Positions 56,192-64,000 of a stretch of 64,000 nucleotides of DNA are shown here, piece by piece. The translations under genes and the position numbers were made by a program. The notes under the pieces are model-generated. The model was given only the letters and a program-made list of their open reading frames with translations, searched no databases and had not been told where the DNA came from. Origin of the DNA: Massilia varians (GTDB taxonomy: Bacteria; Pseudomonadota; Gammaproteobacteria; Burkholderiales; Burkholderiaceae_D); contig NZ_AP026966.1 in the NCBI RefSeq assembly GCF_027923905.1, positions 372,001-436,000 of the forward strand, read 5' to 3'. The first letter of the stretch is position 1; each line of letters starts with the position of its first letter.

Positions 56192-56263
56192 ATCACAACG
56201 AATATTTGACGGTTTTTCTATGAATTTAATGCTGAAATGTTACTTAATCGCAACATTTTGCCG

Positions 56264-56279
56264 TGGAAATGCTGTTGCT
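56264..56279 (+). promoter_or_regulatory. Candidate sigma54 promoter for the protease gene
   Basis: TGGAAATGCTGTTGCT has GG-N10-GC spacing and a TTGC -12 element, with a partial -24 (TGGAAA). It is 110 bp before the protease ATG. AATGCT lies 36 bp upstream of the -24, a spacing also found at the 63680 promoter. Confidence 0.45.
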
Positions 56280-56388
56280 TGGCGCATTGTCCTGCCACTG
56301 CATCCCGCGGCTCGCGTACACTCATGGCCGTTTCTTTAATGAAAATTGCCCTGTGTCAAATACGTATTTTAATGTCGGAAAGACAAAA

Positions 56389-57222
56389 ATGCCCACACGA
56401 TTGATTCTTTTTCGAAACCTCGCTGGCGCGTCCCAAACGGCCCGGAGAATGGTGTCGAAAGTGGCCCTGCACACCCTCGTCCTGGCCGTCGCGGCTGTCG
56501 CCATGCTGCCGGCCAAGGCGCAGAACCTGCCGCGTACGGTGGCGCAAATCAAGCCTTCGGTCGTCGGCGTCGGCACGCTGCTCAAGACCCGCCAGCCTGC
56601 CGTCGTGTTCGTCGGCACCGGCTTCGCCGTCGGTGATGGCTTGAGCATCATTACCAATGCGCACGTCATTCCGAAGCAGCTGGATGAGGCGCGCAAGGAA
56701 GAGCTCGGCATCGTGATCGGCGGCGAGGGCGAGGCCGCCAGTTTTCGTCCGGCCCGCCTGGTCGCGCTGGACGCGGAGCACGACCTGGCCCACCTGCGCC
56801 TGTCCGGCGCGCCGCTGGCCCCGCTGGCGCTTGCCGGTGACGACGGCGTGGCCGAAGGGCAGGAGCTGGCATTCACCGGCTATCCGCTGGGCATGCGCCT
56901 GGGCCTGCATGCGACAACCCACCGCGCGCTGCTGGCGGCGATCACGCCGGTGGTGCGGCCTTCGCTGAATTCGCGCCAGCTCGACGCGCGCGCGATCGCC
57001 CAGCTGCAGCGCTCGGCCTTCCGCATCTATCAGCTCGACGGCACCGCCTATCCCGGCAACAGCGGCAGCCCGCTGTTCCGGCCCGACGACGGTAGCGTGG
57101 TCGGGGTGATCAATATGGTATTCCTGAAGGGCTTGAGGGAAAGCGCGGTGTCCGACCCAAGCGGCATTTCCTACGCGATCCCGGTGCGCCATGTGCGCGA
57201 GCTGTTGCAGCGCCCGCACTAA
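56389..57222 (+). CDS. Trypsin-like serine protease, exported
   Basis: 277 residues with a signal-like segment (VALHTLVLAVAAVAMLPAKAQ). The catalytic triad is visible: His92 (IITNAHVIPK), Asp132 (DAEHDLAHLRL) and Ser225 (AYPGNSGSPLF). There is no PDZ domain, so it is a short form unlike DegP. It lies between the core EPS operon and the export lipoprotein gene and may process surface proteins. GGAAAG precedes the ATG; a Met at 56449 is an alternative start. Confidence 0.88.
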   Translation: MPTRLILFRNLAGASQTARRMVSKVALHTLVLAVAAVAMLPAKAQNLPRTVAQIKPSVVGVGTLLKTRQPAVVFVGTGFAVGDGLSIITNAHVIPKQLDEARKEELGIVIGGEGEAASFRPARLVALDAEHDLAHLRLSGAPLAPLALAGDDGVAEGQELAFTGYPLGMRLGLHATTHRALLAAITPVVRPSLNSRQLDARAIAQLQRSAFRIYQLDGTAYPGNSGSPLFRPDDGSVVGVINMVFLKGLRESAVSDPSGISYAIPVRHVRELLQRPH

Positions 57223-57353: not shown

Positions 57354-57980
57354 GTGAGCACGAACATGACCCCTAAGATCAAGCGCGCGGCCCAGGCTGT
57401 CGCGATCAGCTGCCTGTTCATCCTGGGCGGCTGCGCCACTACCCTGCCGGCGCTGCCTTCGGCCGAAGTGGTGAACCCGGAATACCTGATCGGTCCGGGC
57501 GATGCGATCAATATCATCGTCTGGCGCAATCCGGAAGTGTCGATGTCGGTGCCGGTCCGTCCGGACGGCAAGATCACCACGCCGCTGGTGGAGGACCTGC
57601 CGGCCGCCGGCAAGACCTCGACCCAGCTGGCGCGCGACATCGAAGCCGCGCTTGCCAAGTTCATCCAGCAGCCGGTCGTCACTGTGGTGGTCACCAATTT
57701 CGTCGGCGGCTACGGCGAGCAGATCCGCGTGATCGGCCAGGCGGCACGTCCGCAAGCCCTGCCATATCGCAAGGACATGTCGCTGATGGACGTCCTGATT
57801 GCCGTTGGCGGCGTGACCGAGTTCGCCGCCGGCAACCGCGCCAGCGTCATCCGTACCGTGGACGGCAAGCAGCAGAAATACGGGGTGCGCCTCGACGACC
57901 TGATCAAGGATGGCGACATCTCGGCCAACATGACGATGCGTCCGGGTGACGTGCTGGTCATCCCCGAAAGCTTCTTCTGA
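57354..57980 (+). CDS. XrtA/PEP-CTERM system polysaccharide export lipoprotein (Wza-like)
   Basis: 208 residues. Lipoprotein signal with lipobox FILGGCATT. The polysaccharide export domain starts YLIGPGDAINIIVWRNPEVSMSVPVRPDGKITTPLVEDLPAAGKT. A SLBB-like domain follows (EQIRVIGQAARPQALPYRKDMSLMDVLIAVGGVTEFAAGNRASVIR). It forms the outer-membrane channel or its periplasmic part. The GTG at 57354 has GAGG 9 nt upstream. It is separated from the core operon and divergent to it. Confidence 0.94.
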   Translation: MSTNMTPKIKRAAQAVAISCLFILGGCATTLPALPSAEVVNPEYLIGPGDAINIIVWRNPEVSMSVPVRPDGKITTPLVEDLPAAGKTSTQLARDIEAALAKFIQQPVVTVVVTNFVGGYGEQIRVIGQAARPQALPYRKDMSLMDVLIAVGGVTEFAAGNRASVIRTVDGKQQKYGVRLDDLIKDGDISANMTMRPGDVLVIPESFF

Positions 57981-58078
57981 GTCTGTCGAGAAATCTGACA
58001 CAGCACGCCGAAATCTCGCTAGACTGCATGCGTAAGGGATGAGCAGCCCGCGCTATGCACTTGTTTTATAGTGAGTTT

Positions 58079-58094
58079 TGGCGCAAATGATGCA
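58079..58094 (+). promoter_or_regulatory. Possible sigma54 promoter for the Tat/HprK cassette
   Basis: TGGCGCAAATGATGCA has exact GG-N10-GC spacing. The -24 matches five of six bases of TGGCAC and the -12 is ATGCA instead of TTGCA. It is 69 bp before the GTG start of the Tat-signal protein gene. Confidence 0.45.
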
Positions 58095-58162
58095 ACACGG
58101 TACGTTTCTTGCTTGAATGAAACGAGCCGTTGGGGCAAACCATCAATGTGAGGATAGACACC

Positions 58163-58720
58163 GTGTCCACCGAAGACCAAGCAGGGCGCGCCGAGCCGGC
58201 CGCGCCGATGACCCCGCAAGGCGCGGCGCGTCGCCGCCTGGCGAAGGCCGGGCTCGGTGCGGCCGGCGTGCTGTGGACCACCCAGGCCAGCGCTACCCGG
58301 GTATGTGTCTCCGCATCGGCCGCGTTGTCCAGCGGCCTGCTCAGCAAAAAACCGAATGCCACGGCCGTGAGCTGCGCAGGCAGGTCGCCAGGCTACTGGA
58401 AGAACCACGGCGGCTGGCCGGTCGCGACCGACACCCTGTTCAGCCGCATCTTCAGCTGTTCCGAGGCGAATGACGGCACCTATGGCTCGGCAACCTTGCT
58501 GCAGCTGGTGGAGGGCTGTAAATTCGACAAGTACAATCTTGGCATGCACCTGGTGGCGACCTACCTGAACGTGAAGCAGGGCTGGACCAGCTACCTCTCC
58601 GAGCGTACCCTGCTGCAGATGTGGGCTGAGCTGCAGAGCACCGGCCATTACCAGCCGGCCAAGGGCGTTTACTGGGATGCCGAAACCACCAAAAAATACC
58701 TCGCGTCCACCCAGGGTTGA
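58163..58720 (+). CDS. Twin-arginine exported protein with SPGYWKNHGGWP motif
   Basis: About 185 residues. A twin-Arg signal (AARRRLAKAGLGAAGVLWTTQASA, Arg-Arg near residue 24) predicts folded export by the Tat system. The mature part begins with Cys-rich sequence and holds SPGYWKNHGGWP at about 75-86, a motif shared by uncharacterised secreted proteins. Conserved aromatic and Cys residues follow (IFSCSEAND; LLQLVEGCKFDKYNLGMHLVATYLN). I prefer GTG 58163, with GAGGA 8 nt before it. First gene of a coupled four-gene cassette. It may be the substrate of the HprK-like kinase or the target of the whole system. Confidence 0.7.
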   Translation: MSTEDQAGRAEPAAPMTPQGAARRRLAKAGLGAAGVLWTTQASATRVCVSASAALSSGLLSKKPNATAVSCAGRSPGYWKNHGGWPVATDTLFSRIFSCSEANDGTYGSATLLQLVEGCKFDKYNLGMHLVATYLNVKQGWTSYLSERTLLQMWAELQSTGHYQPAKGVYWDAETTKKYLASTQG

Positions 58721-58722
58721 GG

Positions 58723-59016
58723 ATGCGTGATGTGGCAGTTCCGGCATGGCGCCTGGCGAGCGGACAGGCGCTTGCTTACCGCAGCTGGGACGACGAAACC
58801 GTACTGTACAACGACCTGTCCGGCGCCACCCATCTGCTGGGGCCGGCCGCACTGTGCCTGCTCGAATCCCTGCGTCCCGGACCCGCCTCCAGCGCCGCGC
58901 TGGCCTCGACGCTGCAGGCCGAATTCGATATCGCCGGCGAGACCATTGGCGCCGAGCTGGAAGCACTGCTCGGTGAACTGTCGCGCCTCGGCCTGATCGA
59001 GCCCTGCCCATGCTGA
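58723..59016 (+). CDS. PqqD family protein of the HPr-rel-A system
   Basis: About 97 residues. PqqD-type fold: WRLASGQALAYRSWDDETVLYNDLSGATHLLGPAALCLLESLRPGP, with a C-terminal winged helix (ETIGAELEALLGELSRLGLIEPCPC). PqqD proteins carry peptide substrates to modifying enzymes. This branch is found beside an HprK-related kinase. It starts 2 bp after the Tat protein stop and overlaps the kinase gene by 7 bp. The ending CPC could bind a metal. Confidence 0.8.
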   Translation: MRDVAVPAWRLASGQALAYRSWDDETVLYNDLSGATHLLGPAALCLLESLRPGPASSAALASTLQAEFDIAGETIGAELEALLGELSRLGLIEPCPC

Positions 59017-59933
59017 CGCTGGCCAGCCTCGGCCGCGCGGAGATGCTGCGCCGCCTGTCCCTGTCGGGCCCCGGCCTGGTGCTGCGCACCGGTCCTTTTC
59101 GCAACCGCATCCGTACCGACATTGCGCACCTGGCCGATGCGATCGCATTGCTGTATGCCAACTATCCGGTCGATGGCGAGGACGGTTTCGCCGATTTCCA
59201 GCTCAGCTTCCGCCGCTCGGGCGGTCCGCGCCGCTGGTACCGCCCGCAGGTGCGGTTCGATGCGGACGGCCGGGTGCCGTTCCAGCCGCTGCCGCTGGAC
59301 CAGGCCTTCCCGATGTTCGAATGGGTGATGAACTGGTGCGTGTCGCACCACGCGCACGGCTACCTGATCATTCATGCCGCCGTTCTCCAGCGCGGCAACG
59401 CCGGCGTGATCCTGCCGGCGCCGCCGGGTTCCGGCAAGAGCACCCTGTGCGCGGCGCTGGCCAGCCGCGGCTGGCGCCTGCTGTCGGACGAGCTGACCCT
59501 GGTCAGGCCGCAAGACCTGGCGCTGCTGCCGCTGGCGCGTCCGGTCAGCCTCAAGAATGCGTCGATCGGCGTGCTGCGCGATTATGCCCCGCACGCCCTG
59601 TTCGGCCCCGAAGTCCATGGCACCACCAAGGGCACCATCGCCCACATGGGGGCGCCGCGCGCCAGCATCGCCGCCGCCGCCGAACCGGCGCGTGCGACCC
59701 ATGTCGTGTTCCCCAGGTACGAAGCCGGTACGCCGCCCAGCCTGGCGCCCCTGGCGAAAGCGCGCCTGTTCACCGGCATGGTCGACAACGCCTTCAATTA
59801 TGCGGTGCTGGGGGCGCAGGGTTTCGACGTCCTCGGCCGCCTAGTCGAGGGCTGCAGCGGCTATACGTTCAGCTATGGCCGGCTCGACGATGCCATGGCC
59901 GTGTTCGACGGTTTCGCGGACGGTCCGGCATGA
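59010..59933 (+). CDS. HprK-related kinase A
   Basis: 307 residues. The nucleotide-binding loop PAPPGSGKSTLCAALASRGW (about 135-154) and the HprK-like region LLSDELTLVRPQDLALLPLARPVSLKNASIG are clear. The Asp-Glu pair after the loop resembles the HPr kinase/phosphorylase catalytic site. No HPr gene is near, so the natural target is not known; family knowledge only says that it co-occurs with PqqD-like and nucleotidyltransferase proteins. It overlaps both neighbours by a few bases. Confidence 0.85.
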   Translation: MLTLASLGRAEMLRRLSLSGPGLVLRTGPFRNRIRTDIAHLADAIALLYANYPVDGEDGFADFQLSFRRSGGPRRWYRPQVRFDADGRVPFQPLPLDQAFPMFEWVMNWCVSHHAHGYLIIHAAVLQRGNAGVILPAPPGSGKSTLCAALASRGWRLLSDELTLVRPQDLALLPLARPVSLKNASIGVLRDYAPHALFGPEVHGTTKGTIAHMGAPRASIAAAAEPARATHVVFPRYEAGTPPSLAPLAKARLFTGMVDNAFNYAVLGAQGFDVLGRLVEGCSGYTFSYGRLDDAMAVFDGFADGPA

Positions 59934-61024
59934 AGCGATTGCCCCTGCTGGTCGAGGTCCTGCGCGATCCGGCGCGGGTCGGCAGGCTCGGCCTGGCCGA
60001 TTGGGACCTGCTGCTGCGCCAGGCGGTGAATGCCAGCCTGGTCGCCTCATTGGGAGCCGACCTTGCCGAAGCAGGCCTGCTGGCGTCGGTACCGCCGGAC
60101 GCGCGCCGGCACTTCGAGTGGGCTGACGTGACGCTGCAGGCGCACCAGCGCGCCGTGCGTTTCGAGGTGGACCAGATTCGGCGCGCCCTGGCCGGCCTCG
60201 ACCTGCCGCTCATCCTGCTGAAAGGGGCGGCCTATGCGCTTGCCGGACTGCCGCCGGCACAAGGGCGTATTTTTTCCGACGTCGATATCCTGGTGCCGAA
60301 GGAGCGTATCGGCGAAGTCGAGGCGGCGCTGATGCTGCACGGCTGGGCAGGCGTCAAGCAGGATCCGTACGACCAGCGCTACTACCGGGAATGGATGCAC
60401 GAGCTGCCGCCGATGGAGCACGTCCAGCGCGGCGGCGCCATCGACGTGCACCATGCCATTCTGCCCGAAACGGCGCGTGCGCGTCCGGATCCGGCCCTGC
60501 TGCGCGCGGCGGCGCAGCCGCTTCCCGGCAGCGACAATCTCTGGATACTGGGACCGCATGACCTGGTGCTGCACAGTGCGGTGCACCTGTTTTCCGAAGG
60601 CGAGACGGACCGTGGACTGCGCGACCTGCTCGACTTGCACCGGCTGCTGCTGCACTTTGGCACGGCGCCCGGCTTCTGGGAGGGATTGGCGGCGCGTGCT
60701 GTCCAGCTGCAGCTGGCGCGGCCGCTGTTCTATGCGCTGCGCTATTGCAGCCGGTTGCTCGGGACCCCGGTGCCGGCGGCGACCCTGGCCGCAGCCGAGG
60801 CTACCGGCCGACCTTCTGCACCCCTGCTGGCCCTGATGGACCGCATCTTCATGCGTATCCTGGTGCCGCAACATCCGAGCTGTGCCGACCGCTTCACCCC
60901 CTTGGCGCAGGGCGCACTCTACCTGCGCGGCAATTGGCTGCGCATGCCGCTACTGATGCTGGCGCGCCACCTGTTTCACAAGGCGTTCATCTCACCCAGG
61001 ACGCCCAACGCCGAGCAAGTCTGA
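59930..61024 (+). CDS. Nucleotidyltransferase family protein (NTP_transf_5-like)
   Basis: 364 residues. LILLKGAAYALAGLPPAQGRIFSDVDILVPKERIGEVEAALMLHGW contains the GA-loop and DxD (Asp117-Val-Asp119) of the polymerase-beta-like fold. A second acidic residue region follows (GGAIDVHHAILP). It would transfer a nucleotide or use ATP to modify a small molecule or peptide. The ATGA overlap with the kinase gene shows coupling. The larger frame from 59321 overlaps the kinase in another register and is not coding there. Last gene of the cassette. Confidence 0.82.
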   Translation: MKRLPLLVEVLRDPARVGRLGLADWDLLLRQAVNASLVASLGADLAEAGLLASVPPDARRHFEWADVTLQAHQRAVRFEVDQIRRALAGLDLPLILLKGAAYALAGLPPAQGRIFSDVDILVPKERIGEVEAALMLHGWAGVKQDPYDQRYYREWMHELPPMEHVQRGGAIDVHHAILPETARARPDPALLRAAAQPLPGSDNLWILGPHDLVLHSAVHLFSEGETDRGLRDLLDLHRLLLHFGTAPGFWEGLAARAVQLQLARPLFYALRYCSRLLGTPVPAATLAAAEATGRPSAPLLALMDRIFMRILVPQHPSCADRFTPLAQGALYLRGNWLRMPLLMLARHLFHKAFISPRTPNAEQV

Positions 61025-61102
61025 CAACACATCTGGTTTCAATTGCATGACTTTAATGAAATGTGTTGAAATTGGGCGAACACACCCTTGCTCGAGGAAA
61101 GC

Positions 61103-61834
61103 ATGCAGGCAGCGTCCATTCCCCTGATCCGTTTGCAGGCCTTGCAGCAAGCATTGGCATACTGCCCTGAACAAGATAGCCTCCAGGATCAGGTCGCGCT
61201 CGCGGCCGGCCTGATCGGCGCGGCAAGTTGTTCGCTCATGCTATTGGGAGGCAAGGGGGAGGGCGAGTCGTGCATGAGCATCCATGCCCACCACGGTCCC
61301 TTGCCCAATGCCGCACTGCAGGCCGCCATCCGGCGTGGCGAAGGTATTTCCGGCCGGGTGCTGGAAAGGGGAAGCGCACTGCTGGTCCCGGATATCCGGG
61401 AGTCTGAATTCGCATCGTTTGCACGGCGCGGGACGGCACTGGGATGCAGCCTCGTGTGTGCCCCAATCCATGTGGAGGGACGCATCGTCGGGGTCATCAA
61501 TGCCGCCAACGGCAAGGACAGCGCTGCCTTCGACGAGGCGGCCTTGTGCCTGCTCCAGCTGTTCGCCTCGTTCCTGGGCAGGTATCTGGAAATACATCAC
61601 TTGCGCCACCTGCTCGGCTCACGCTTCGCCCAGCTGGCGATGCTCCAGGAGACGGCGGGCGAGCAGCCTGGAACGGACCGGCTGGCTTACCACCAACCCG
61701 AACAGGTCGCCAGGATCCTGGCGCGCTCGTTTTTCCGTGAAATGTACCGTGCCGGCTTTGGCTCGGCCCAGATCCTCTCGGCGGCGTCCGAACTCATCGG
61801 CCAGCTCAATCGCGACATCCAGCAGGACCATTGA
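61103..61834 (+). CDS. GAF domain-containing protein
   Basis: 243 residues. The GAF domain spans most of the N-terminal 160 residues (AALQAAIRRGEGISGRVLERGSALLVPDIRESEFASFARRG, then CAPIHVEGRIVGVINAANGKDSAAFDEAALCLLQLFASFLG). A short helical C-terminus follows (VARILARSFFREMYRAGFGSAQILSAASELIGQLN), which could be a DNA- or partner-binding part. No catalytic output domain. The ATG is preceded by GAGGAAAG. It may sense a small ligand for the surrounding genes; this is inference. Confidence 0.8.
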   Translation: MQAASIPLIRLQALQQALAYCPEQDSLQDQVALAAGLIGAASCSLMLLGGKGEGESCMSIHAHHGPLPNAALQAAIRRGEGISGRVLERGSALLVPDIRESEFASFARRGTALGCSLVCAPIHVEGRIVGVINAANGKDSAAFDEAALCLLQLFASFLGRYLEIHHLRHLLGSRFAQLAMLQETAGEQPGTDRLAYHQPEQVARILARSFFREMYRAGFGSAQILSAASELIGQLNRDIQQDH

Positions 61835-62047: not shown

Positions 62048-62779
62048 ATGTTCGACACCGTCACGACAGAATCGGTCAGTCCTGGCAGCATTGCTGACAA
62101 CGGGGAAGATGCGTACGCGGCGAGCATTGTCGATGTCACCATCAATGAAAGCGTATTCGGCATCCGTGCCGCCGACGTCGACGAACAGCGCAGTTCCGCC
62201 AGTATGCTCATCAGCAAGATGTATGCATGGCGCGGCTATAGCGGCAACCATCAGATCGGCAATGACCCGAACCGGATTACCCTGACCGCTTCGAACAAGA
62301 GTGGCGTCATCGGTACACTCAGCCTCAACCTCGATTCCGAAGTCGGCCTGCTCTCCGACCAGGTATTCCGGGACCATATCGATCCCTACCGTGCCCAAGG
62401 CAAGGTGTGCGAGATTATCAAGCTGGCCTTCGATCCGTCGGTCAAGTCCAAGGCCGTGTTGGCATCGCTGTTCCACGTGGCCTTCATCTACGCCAGGGAC
62501 TTGCACAAGTGCAGTGATATTTTCATTGAAGTCAATCCGCGCCACCGCCGCTTTTATGAAGCGATGCTCGACTTCAAGGTGGAGTGCGAGTCGCGGCCGA
62601 ATCCGCGCGTCGACGCGCCGGCGGTCTTGTTGCGGGGGCATATCGCCCACGGTACCCAGCGCATTGCCGAGGTGGCGGGAAAGGGCGACCACGCGGTCGG
62701 CGACCGCTCGCTGTTTCCCTACTTTTTTTCGCCGCGCGAAGAGGCCGGTATCATCGGGCGCCTGAAACGCATCGGCTGA
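62048..62779 (+). CDS. FeeM-like N-acyl amino acid synthase (GNAT/LuxI-type fold)
   Basis: 243 residues. The catalytic core matches N-acyl amino acid synthases: RITLTASNKSGVIGTLSLNLDSEVGLLSDQVFRDHIDPYRAQGKVCEIIKLAF, followed by CSDIFIEVNPRHRRFYEAMLDFK. These enzymes transfer a fatty acyl chain from acyl-ACP to an amino acid and resemble LuxI autoinducer synthases. Members often lie near exosortase genes. GGAGAG lies 7 nt before the ATG. The product could be a lipid signal or a surfactant, but this is inference. Confidence 0.82.
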   Translation: MFDTVTTESVSPGSIADNGEDAYAASIVDVTINESVFGIRAADVDEQRSSASMLISKMYAWRGYSGNHQIGNDPNRITLTASNKSGVIGTLSLNLDSEVGLLSDQVFRDHIDPYRAQGKVCEIIKLAFDPSVKSKAVLASLFHVAFIYARDLHKCSDIFIEVNPRHRRFYEAMLDFKVECESRPNPRVDAPAVLLRGHIAHGTQRIAEVAGKGDHAVGDRSLFPYFFSPREEAGIIGRLKRIG

Positions 62780-62908
62780 ACCCTGCCCCCTCTGGGTGGG
62801 CTAGTTGAACAACAATCCCTCCCCGGCAGACATCTGCAGCTTGCTCCCAAGTGCAGAAACTCCTATATTCACTTTCTTCTTTTCACCATCTCACAGCAAG
62901 GAATGCCC

Positions 62909-63592: not shown

Positions 63593-63679
63593 CATTTTGT
63601 TGTCGAGATTTTTTACAATGCTATTTTTTTTTAACAAATGAAAATGCTAAGTAATTGATTTTAAATAATTTTTATTAAC

Positions 63680-63695
63680 TGGCACGGAGCTTGCT
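63680..63695 (+). promoter_or_regulatory. Sigma54 (-24/-12) promoter of the PEP-CTERM-type gene
   Basis: TGGCACGGAGCTTGCT is an almost perfect sigma54 promoter (consensus TGGCAC-N5-TTGCA), 47 bp before the ATG at 63742. Upstream AT-rich DNA contains AATGCTA twice (63617-63623 and 63643-63649), 26 bp apart, possible PrsR sites. Confidence 0.88.
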
Positions 63696-63741: not shown

Positions 63742-64000
63742 ATGAAAGTAGTCTCGAAGACCATTATTGCTTGCTCGATCGCAGCCGTTTCACTGTTTGG
63801 TACCGCTGCAAAGGCTGACAACTTCAATCCGTTCACCGTCAACTATGACGGCCGCGAGTTCACTGCAGACAAGATCACCGGTAACTACAACGAAATTGCT
63901 ACCTTCAATCAAGACGGCACCTTCAATGTTTCGCTGGTATGGAACGCGGGCCAGTTCGTCGACAATAACGGCACAACCCCGGTGGTCAAAACTGGCCTGA
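63742..64000 (+). CDS. pepA: Exported PEP-CTERM-type protein, PepA-like (partial, 3' end beyond window)
   Basis: The first 86 residues are visible. Signal peptide MKVVSKTIIACSIAAVSLFGTAAKA, then NFNPFTVNYDGREFTADKITGNYNEIATFNQDGTFNVSLVWNAGQFVDNNG. This resembles the flocculation-associated PEP-CTERM protein PepA of EPS-forming betaproteobacteria. The C-terminal PEP-CTERM sorting signal would lie beyond the window, so it cannot be verified. GGAG precedes the ATG. The strong sigma54 promoter and the prsK/prsR genes in the same window fit PrsR control. Confidence 0.7.
   Translation, partial: MKVVSKTIIACSIAAVSLFGTAAKADNFNPFTVNYDGREFTADKITGNYNEIATFNQDGTFNVSLVWNAGQFVDNNGTTPVVKTGL

Follow-up and report, generated by a model that had tools for sequence, protein, structure and literature searches.

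The four-gene cassette

The subject of this analysis is a cassette of four genes in Massilia varians, lying in a stretch of 64,000 nucleotides (contig NZ_AP026966.1, positions 372,001 to 436,000) from a genome of 5.58 megabases; the whole stretch is called the window below. The genes are arranged head to tail on the plus strand at 58163–61024 and encode, in this order, a protein with a putative twin-arginine translocation (Tat) signal, a PqqD-like protein, an HprK-related kinase and a nucleotidyltransferase; the last three are referred to as the trio. A gap of two bases separates the first two genes, the PqqD-like gene overlaps the kinase gene by 7 bases, and the kinase and nucleotidyltransferase genes share an ATGA overlap. 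The four genes form a genuine operon, beyond chance neighbourhood, as proposed in the initial annotation of this DNA.

The first open reading frame (ORF; GTG at 58163 to TGA at 58720) encodes the YWKNH protein of 185 residues, the putative substrate of the trio. The second (ATG at 58723 to TGA at 59016) encodes a PqqD-like peptide carrier, or RRE (recognition element of RiPPs, ribosomally synthesised and post-translationally modified peptides). It scores 68.8 bits with TIGR04353 (cut-off 35) and 27.7 bits with PF05402 (cut-off 23.4). The third (ATG at 59010 to TGA at 59933) is HprK-related kinase A, TIGR04352, with 377.3 bits at a cut-off of 200, and the fourth (ATG at 59930 to TGA at 61024) is a nucleotidyltransferase of PF14907 (NTP_transf_5), with 187.7 bits at a cut-off of 31.2. 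These scores confirm the earlier assignment of the trio, and the SPGYWKNHGGWP, PAPPGSGKST P-loop and DVD motifs noted with it are all present in the proteins.

Conservation of the cassette

The kinase exceeds its cut-off in 63 of the 245 family genomes sampled, and the YWKNH profile matches in the same 63. In all 63 the YWKNH match lies on the contig and strand of the kinase, ending 293–858 bases before the kinase match. Hence the Tat gene, expected from the initial annotation to stand beside the other three, is the first gene in every kinase-positive genome of the family sample. None of the 245 genomes has a YWKNH match without the kinase; three more contain only weak kinase matches, under the cut-off.

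In a sample of 398 genomes of the phylum, the kinase exceeds the cut-off in 61. The wider set comprises 140 kinase loci, that is, 57 of these 61 (including the one in the window), three from the family sample and 80 named loci, the genome-sample and named loci overlapping in part, as with G094 and L124, whose contigs are equally long. Under a strict twin-arginine rule, 102 of the 140 loci have an upstream signal protein, and 274 of 7599 other ORFs, counted singly, pass as well; a few of the picks (L082, L109, L149) look off target, and the contrast is flattered, as the control counts per ORF and several ORFs per locus are eligible. With a looser rule and inspection by eye, a twin-arginine-type protein is seen just upstream in 127 of the 140 loci. 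The script alone yielded 67 proteins of the YWKNH class, 40 of the SC class (described below), 13 others and 20 loci with none; by eye, four of the 13 others were dropped (L083, L115, L150, L161) and eleven were added (L060, L070, L111, L162, L165, L166 with KR for RR, L171, L177, L183, L189, L193).

Further constant neighbours were considered as parts of the system and rejected. The most frequent upstream families are the XrtA export protein (6/61) and PrsT (3/61), and no downstream family listed exceeds 4/59, these lists being based on a crude longest-ORF rule and on scans of 61 of the 71 upstream and 59 of the 77 downstream ORFs listed. HtrA-type proteases are found at 3/61 upstream and 4/59 downstream. 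A Planctomycetota bin (Phycisphaeraceae, L196) has a related kinase and a PqqD-like protein, with no recognised Tat protein upstream.

Classes of the upstream protein

As judged by their profiles and terminal motifs, the upstream proteins fall into at least two unlike classes, the YWKNH class and a class ending in [ST]C-x-x-S, denoted SC. The former is found in the Oxalobacteraceae, Gallionellaceae, Thiobacillaceae and many gammaproteobacteria. The latter is found in the Magnetococcales, sphingomonads and some gammaproteobacteria, and shows no YWKNH profile match at E 1e-3. Its C-terminal box, [ST][CA]-hydrophobic-x-S-[FLIVM], is carried by 43 of the 68 candidate ORFs outside the YWKNH class and by 12 of 7599 other ORFs; the 43 proteins were picked by the box itself, so that the fair test is that of unselected homologues. 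Among these the box is present in 21 of 21 proteins, mostly from the Magnetococcales where the source is named, and in all 120 sphingomonad homologues listed of 2890 found, with the box serine fixed. Under the rules used, 16 of the 127 upstream proteins belong to neither class. One protein (L187) has an SC-type C-terminal box and also matches the YWKNH profile at 2e-5; on the tree it was counted as YWKNH. Family scans of ten proteins from both classes gave no informative match, only weak Tat-signal matches and one chance-like match of 17 bits.

The class label requires three changes on the tree of 140 kinases, against a shuffled mean of 34.5, and none of 500 shuffles is as low; the tree is a quick one with many unsupported forks and 28 unlabelled rows. 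On this tree the predicted substrate class follows the kinase.

A YWKNH domain exclusive to the cassette was ruled out by the profile matches in the 398 phylum genomes. Of seven matches, in a scan that missed three distant YWKNH proteins found otherwise (G263, G559, G259), five adjoin the kinase (G000, G018, G513, G579, G589). Another is a partial domain in a 760-residue frame (G583:C23:21698-21934), in a genome with XrtA and no kinase match, and the seventh has two internal stops and looks like chance. The domain, then, also occurs outside the cassette, in G583.

Signal and conserved residues of the YWKNH protein

Scans of the YWKNH protein with Pfam and NCBIfam yield no family match, the PEP-CTERM sorting domain included. 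Its closest homologues, where the source is named, are mainly from Massilia, with one from Telluria.

The predicted signal covers residues 22–44 (ARRRLAKAGLGAAGVLWTTQASA, positions 58226–58294, plus strand) and consists of a twin arginine followed by a hydrophobic stretch. All 40 rows of alignment A1 have R23, R24 and R25. The arginines were counted there and not in the larger alignment of 126 rows (from 137 proteins, minus identical and over-long or short ones), as rows of the latter start at the first RR-type match, which biases such counts. Since the twin arginine is invariant and a hydrophobic stretch follows it, the YWKNH protein is probably exported by Tat, and TatC is encoded in the same genome.

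The signals carry a further signature, T-[LIMV]-x-S near the signal end. It is present in 80 of 116 YWKNH proteins (8.3 in shuffles) and in 21 of 42 SC proteins (2.2 in shuffles), and in one of the 26 generic Tat-model matches of this genome, 11 of which are over the model cut-off. Such conservation is foreign to ordinary signals. A partner that reads the sequence of these signals is therefore likely, and the PqqD-like protein would be the obvious candidate.

In the 126-row alignment the most conserved residues of the mature part are S52 (125/126), S56 (124/126), N136 (122/126) and C48 (120/126). Three of these four, C48, S52 and S56, sit directly after the signal (58304–58330, plus strand) and form a candidate modification site. 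The SPGYWKNHGGWP motif follows at 58385–58420 (plus strand), with W79 in 104 and W85 in 118 of the 126 rows. The C-terminal YLASTQG (58697–58717, plus strand) corresponds to Y[LIF]xxT, found near the C terminus in all 120 close homologues listed of 239 found. Its threonine was considered as a universal phosphosite and rejected: in the 126-row alignment it is replaced in other clades, being asparagine in L153, L144 and L182, in L143, L152 and L167, and likewise in L116.

Enzymes of the trio

The residues H122, K143, D160 and E161 of the kinase occupy columns that show no variation across 60 HprK-related kinases and align with the histidine, the P-loop lysine and the aspartate pair of HPr kinases. 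In the nucleotidyltransferase both aspartates of D-x-D, together with several histidines, lysines and arginines, are invariant in 125 of 125 sequences. Given this invariance, both enzymes look active. The PqqD-like protein is divergent, with a single position reaching 93% among 118 sequences.

Promoter and regulation

The PEP-CTERM box consists of motif 1, 17 bases long with TTTACA at its end, then 32–92 bases of spacer and a sigma-54 −24/−12 element; it precedes proteobacterial PEP-CTERM genes, with PrsR as the likely activator (PMC1569441, 2006). RpoN dependence of one such gene has been reported in Aquincola (PMC9850573).

A box of this kind precedes the operon. Its motif 1, the putative PrsR site TGTCGAGAAATCTGACA (57984–58000, plus strand), is indicated by alignment, by enrichment and by the published description; two of the 12 fixed consensus positions differ (CTGACA for TTTACA). 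This activator-type site is absent from the initial annotation. It pairs with a sigma-54 −24/−12 element, ACGGTACGTTTCTTGCT (58097–58113, plus strand, with GG at 58099–58100 and GC at 58111–58112), conserved in three aligned relatives and located 49 bases before the GTG start. The spacer of 96 bases lies outside the range given in PMC1569441. The −24/−12 element suggested initially, TTGGCGCAAATGATGCA at 58078–58094, has a spacing of 77 bases, a better fit to that range; it was rejected, as the three relatives do not keep it and the conserved element lies about 20 bases downstream.

Motif 1 and GG-N10-GC reach a combined score of at least 19 in 90 of 116 YWKNH regions (0.6 expected from shuffles) and in 8 of 47 other regions (0.1 expected), the motif consensus having been derived from the published TTTACA and four YWKNH sequences and hence not being wholly independent. 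The scoring covered 116 of 133 YWKNH loci and 47 of 49 others, with short, near-identical and RR-less ones left out. The strict box has three matches in the whole genome, all before PEP-CTERM-type genes, whose products end, as seen by eye, in a PEP-CTERM-type tail of VPEP, a hydrophobic stretch and arginines. A second, strict box in the window (TGTCGAGATTTTTTACA ... CTGGCACGGAGCTTGCT, 63601–63695, plus strand) stands before the PEP-CTERM-type gene starting at 63742, which runs beyond the window (as seen in L117) and whose product ends in VPEPASLGLLGLGLLGLGAARRRKQVKK.

The region also encodes the PrsR response regulator, TIGR02915 (25420–26748, plus strand; G000:C1:397420-398748; 744 bits, cut-off 502.6), and the exosortase XrtA, TIGR03109 (46092–47669, minus strand; 344.6 bits, cut-off 208). 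With the box, these strongly support the link to PrsK/PrsR and sigma-54 made in the initial annotation. A second exosortase-family match in the same genome (G000:C1:1884017-1884787, 136.5 bits) is under the XrtA cut-off.

In the family sample, 60 of the 63 kinase-positive genomes have XrtA over its cut-off, as do 33 of the 182 that are kinase-negative; for the phylum sample the corresponding figures are 25/61 and 10/337. The genomes are related, so p-values for this co-occurrence are overstated. From the distribution of the box and the co-occurrence with XrtA, the predicted PrsR/sigma-54 link belongs to some members of the group, chiefly those of the YWKNH class.

Neighbouring genes

The gene directly upstream of the operon (57354–57980, plus strand) encodes the XrtA/PEP-CTERM exopolysaccharide export protein, TIGR03027 (239.9 bits, cut-off 180), and just before it lies a gene for an HtrA-like trypsin-fold protease (56263–57222, plus strand). 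Directly downstream of the operon is a gene for a GAF-domain protein (61088–61834, plus strand). An N-acyl amino acid synthase of the FeeM family (PF21926, 163.6 bits) is encoded at 62048–62779 (plus strand), with a methyltransferase after it at 62903. The XrtA-system amidotransferase, TIGR03108 (42949–44844, minus strand, 1032 bits, over the model cut-off), is an asparagine-synthetase homologue; it also matches a lasso cyclase model with 253 bits, under the cut-off of that model.

Proposed function of the cassette

On balance we are inclined to favour covalent modification of the Tat protein by the trio. The suggestion comes from conservation and from analogy with lasso peptide clusters, some of which carry an RRE, an HprK-like kinase and a nucleotidyltransferase together with a precursor (PMC9266682, PMC10368454). 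As described there, PadeK, ThcoK and SyanK phosphorylate the C-terminal serine of the lasso precursor (PMC9266682), BsfK phosphorylates its precursor at Ser3 (PMC10368454), and the phosphorylated residue receives hexoses from PsmN, which may really be a nucleotidyltransferase (PMC9266682). Since these clusters combine the same kind of trio with a phosphorylated precursor, the trio of the cassette may phosphorylate and cap the Tat protein before export.

In the proposed sequence of events, PrsR and sigma-54 would turn on the PEP-CTERM regulon, so that the YWKNH protein is made together with the three cytoplasmic proteins. The PqqD-like protein would bind the precursor, most likely via the leader-like Tat signal; the kinase would phosphorylate conserved serine or threonine residues; and the nucleotidyltransferase would add a nucleotidyl or sugar cap to the phosphate. 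Once finished and folded, the protein would leave via Tat, a route proposed because it fits a product completed in the cytoplasm, and act at the surface or in the exopolysaccharide. The exact chemistry, phosphorylation followed by nucleotidyltransferase capping, is a tentative part of this scheme. What the sequences show directly is the operon and its conservation, the signature in the signal, the agreement of protein class with the kinase tree, and the regulatory box. That the Tat protein is the substrate is the best reading of the comparative evidence and, like the chemistry, the modified site and where the protein ends up, is inferred.

Several observations weigh against this scheme. Thirteen of the 140 loci have no confident upstream protein, two of them being ended by the contig end. 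The Tat signal of the initial annotation stands as far as the twin arginine and the hydrophobic stretch are concerned, but the generic Tat models TIGR01409 and PF10518 do not match the YWKNH protein of the window, which is absent from the 26 generic matches in its genome; a few relatives match these models weakly, under the cut-off. The T-[LIMV]-x-S signature is not universal in the aligned proteins, as the window copy reads TTQAS, and in the sphingomonad proteins a fixed SIRP takes its place (120 of 120 listed). The second aspartate of HPr kinases is replaced by glutamate in 60 of 60 HprK-related kinases. Two locus groups with family-matching kinases have asparagine for the C-terminal threonine of the YWKNH protein. 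Candidate sites vary by class, the YWKNH class offering S52 and S56 close to the N terminus of the mature protein and the SC class a C-terminal serine, and the conserved serines may be structural instead. Finally, the tree test demonstrates clustering, which common descent alone would give equally.

The most serious alternative, although a rather unlikely one, is that the trio acts on another target, making or altering something such as a small molecule, a lipid or an exopolysaccharide glycan unit, with the Tat protein as its co-regulated partner, which would use that product outside the cell. Nucleotidyltransferases and P-loop kinases frequently act on small molecules; the operon adjoins exopolysaccharide genes and XrtA, and the kinase co-occurs with XrtA in the family genomes. 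Yet the PqqD-like protein is a peptide-binding element, and the retention of a twin-arginine signal, often with the same signature, by unlike classes of protein is easier to understand if the protein itself is handled. Moreover, the Tat protein persists although 36 of the 61 kinase-positive phylum genomes lack XrtA over the cut-off and most non-YWKNH regions lack the box.

A still less probable alternative makes the PqqD-like protein and the kinase a proofreading chaperone acting on the Tat signal, which would retain the precursor until it has folded or acquired its disulphides or ligands, with the kinase cycle timing the release and nothing remaining attached to the mature protein. The unusual conservation of the signal region, with many positions fixed in the 21 Magnetococcales-type homologues, would suit a dedicated partner, and conserved cysteines come after the signal; this account leaves without explanation both the nucleotidyltransferase with its invariant D-x-D and the conserved serine boxes outside the signal. 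Very improbable is a role of the kinase as an HPr-type regulator of a carrier protein whose gene lies elsewhere, with the gene order kept by shared regulation only, since, although the best matches of the kinase profile among solved structures are HPr kinases (E 3e-4), the window kinase scores 15.2 bits with PF07475 (HPr kinase/phosphorylase; gathering score 33.3), the kinase and the Tat gene co-occur throughout the kinase-positive family genomes, and the class of the Tat protein follows the kinase tree.

Covalent modification of the Tat protein remains the preferred reading. A wider conjecture, offered with considerable reserve, is that the Tat signal doubles as a RiPP-type leader, that a widespread trio phosphorylates and caps whole, folded proteins of several unlike classes ahead of their export, and that in beta- and gammaproteobacteria it forms part of the exosortase/PrsR programme for building the exopolysaccharide matrix. 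If the preferred reading holds, lasso-type tailoring chemistry would extend to full-size proteins leaving through Tat, and the exosortase programme would include, besides PEP-CTERM proteins, another kind of surface protein equipped with dedicated modification enzymes.

Comparison with known systems

The kinase resembles HPr kinase/phosphorylase in the aligned histidine, P-loop lysine and aspartate; it differs in scoring under the PF07475 gathering score and in its gene partners. The PEP-CTERM/XrtA system with PrsK, PrsR and sigma-54 shares with the operon the preceding box and the nearby XrtA and PrsR genes. Unlike PEP-CTERM proteins, the YWKNH protein has no match to the PEP-CTERM domain, and its predicted route is given by the twin-arginine signal.

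The lasso tailoring modules (paeninodin PadeK, pseudomycoidin PsmK/PsmN and BsfK/BsfN) likewise combine a carrier, a kinase and a nucleotidyltransferase with a precursor gene. This likeness is one in kind, PadeK, PsmK and PsmN having been set beside the window proteins by description. Mapping through HPr kinase indicates that the histidine, the P-loop lysine and the first aspartate of the HPr-kinase set are kept here, the second aspartate being glutamate. Lasso systems have a short precursor and an ATP-binding cassette (ABC) transporter, whereas the precursor here has 185 residues and a Tat signal, and no lasso leader peptidase or cyclase over the cut-off is found among the 19 window proteins scanned.

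Literature searches, with most subscription papers outside their scope, found no paper and no described substrate or function under the name HPr-rel-A, no paper on PF14907 or NTP_transf_5 with lasso, and no paper combining RiPP, kinase, twin-arginine and PqqD; a description of HPr-rel-A function may exist in sources beyond these searches. In the available text of the 2025 RRE discovery paper (PMC12710340) the words kinase and Tat do not occur.

The trio corresponds to HPr-rel-A, with a kinase over the TIGR04352 cut-off, an adjoining and overlapping PqqD-like gene over the TIGR04353 cut-off, and the PF14907 nucleotidyltransferase next to them, which we take to be a component of that system, as did the initial annotation. 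The present analysis adds the Tat-signal protein, its classes, the signature of its signal and the PEP-CTERM box. Hence the kinase cassette now has candidates for its substrate, its recognition element and its regulator.

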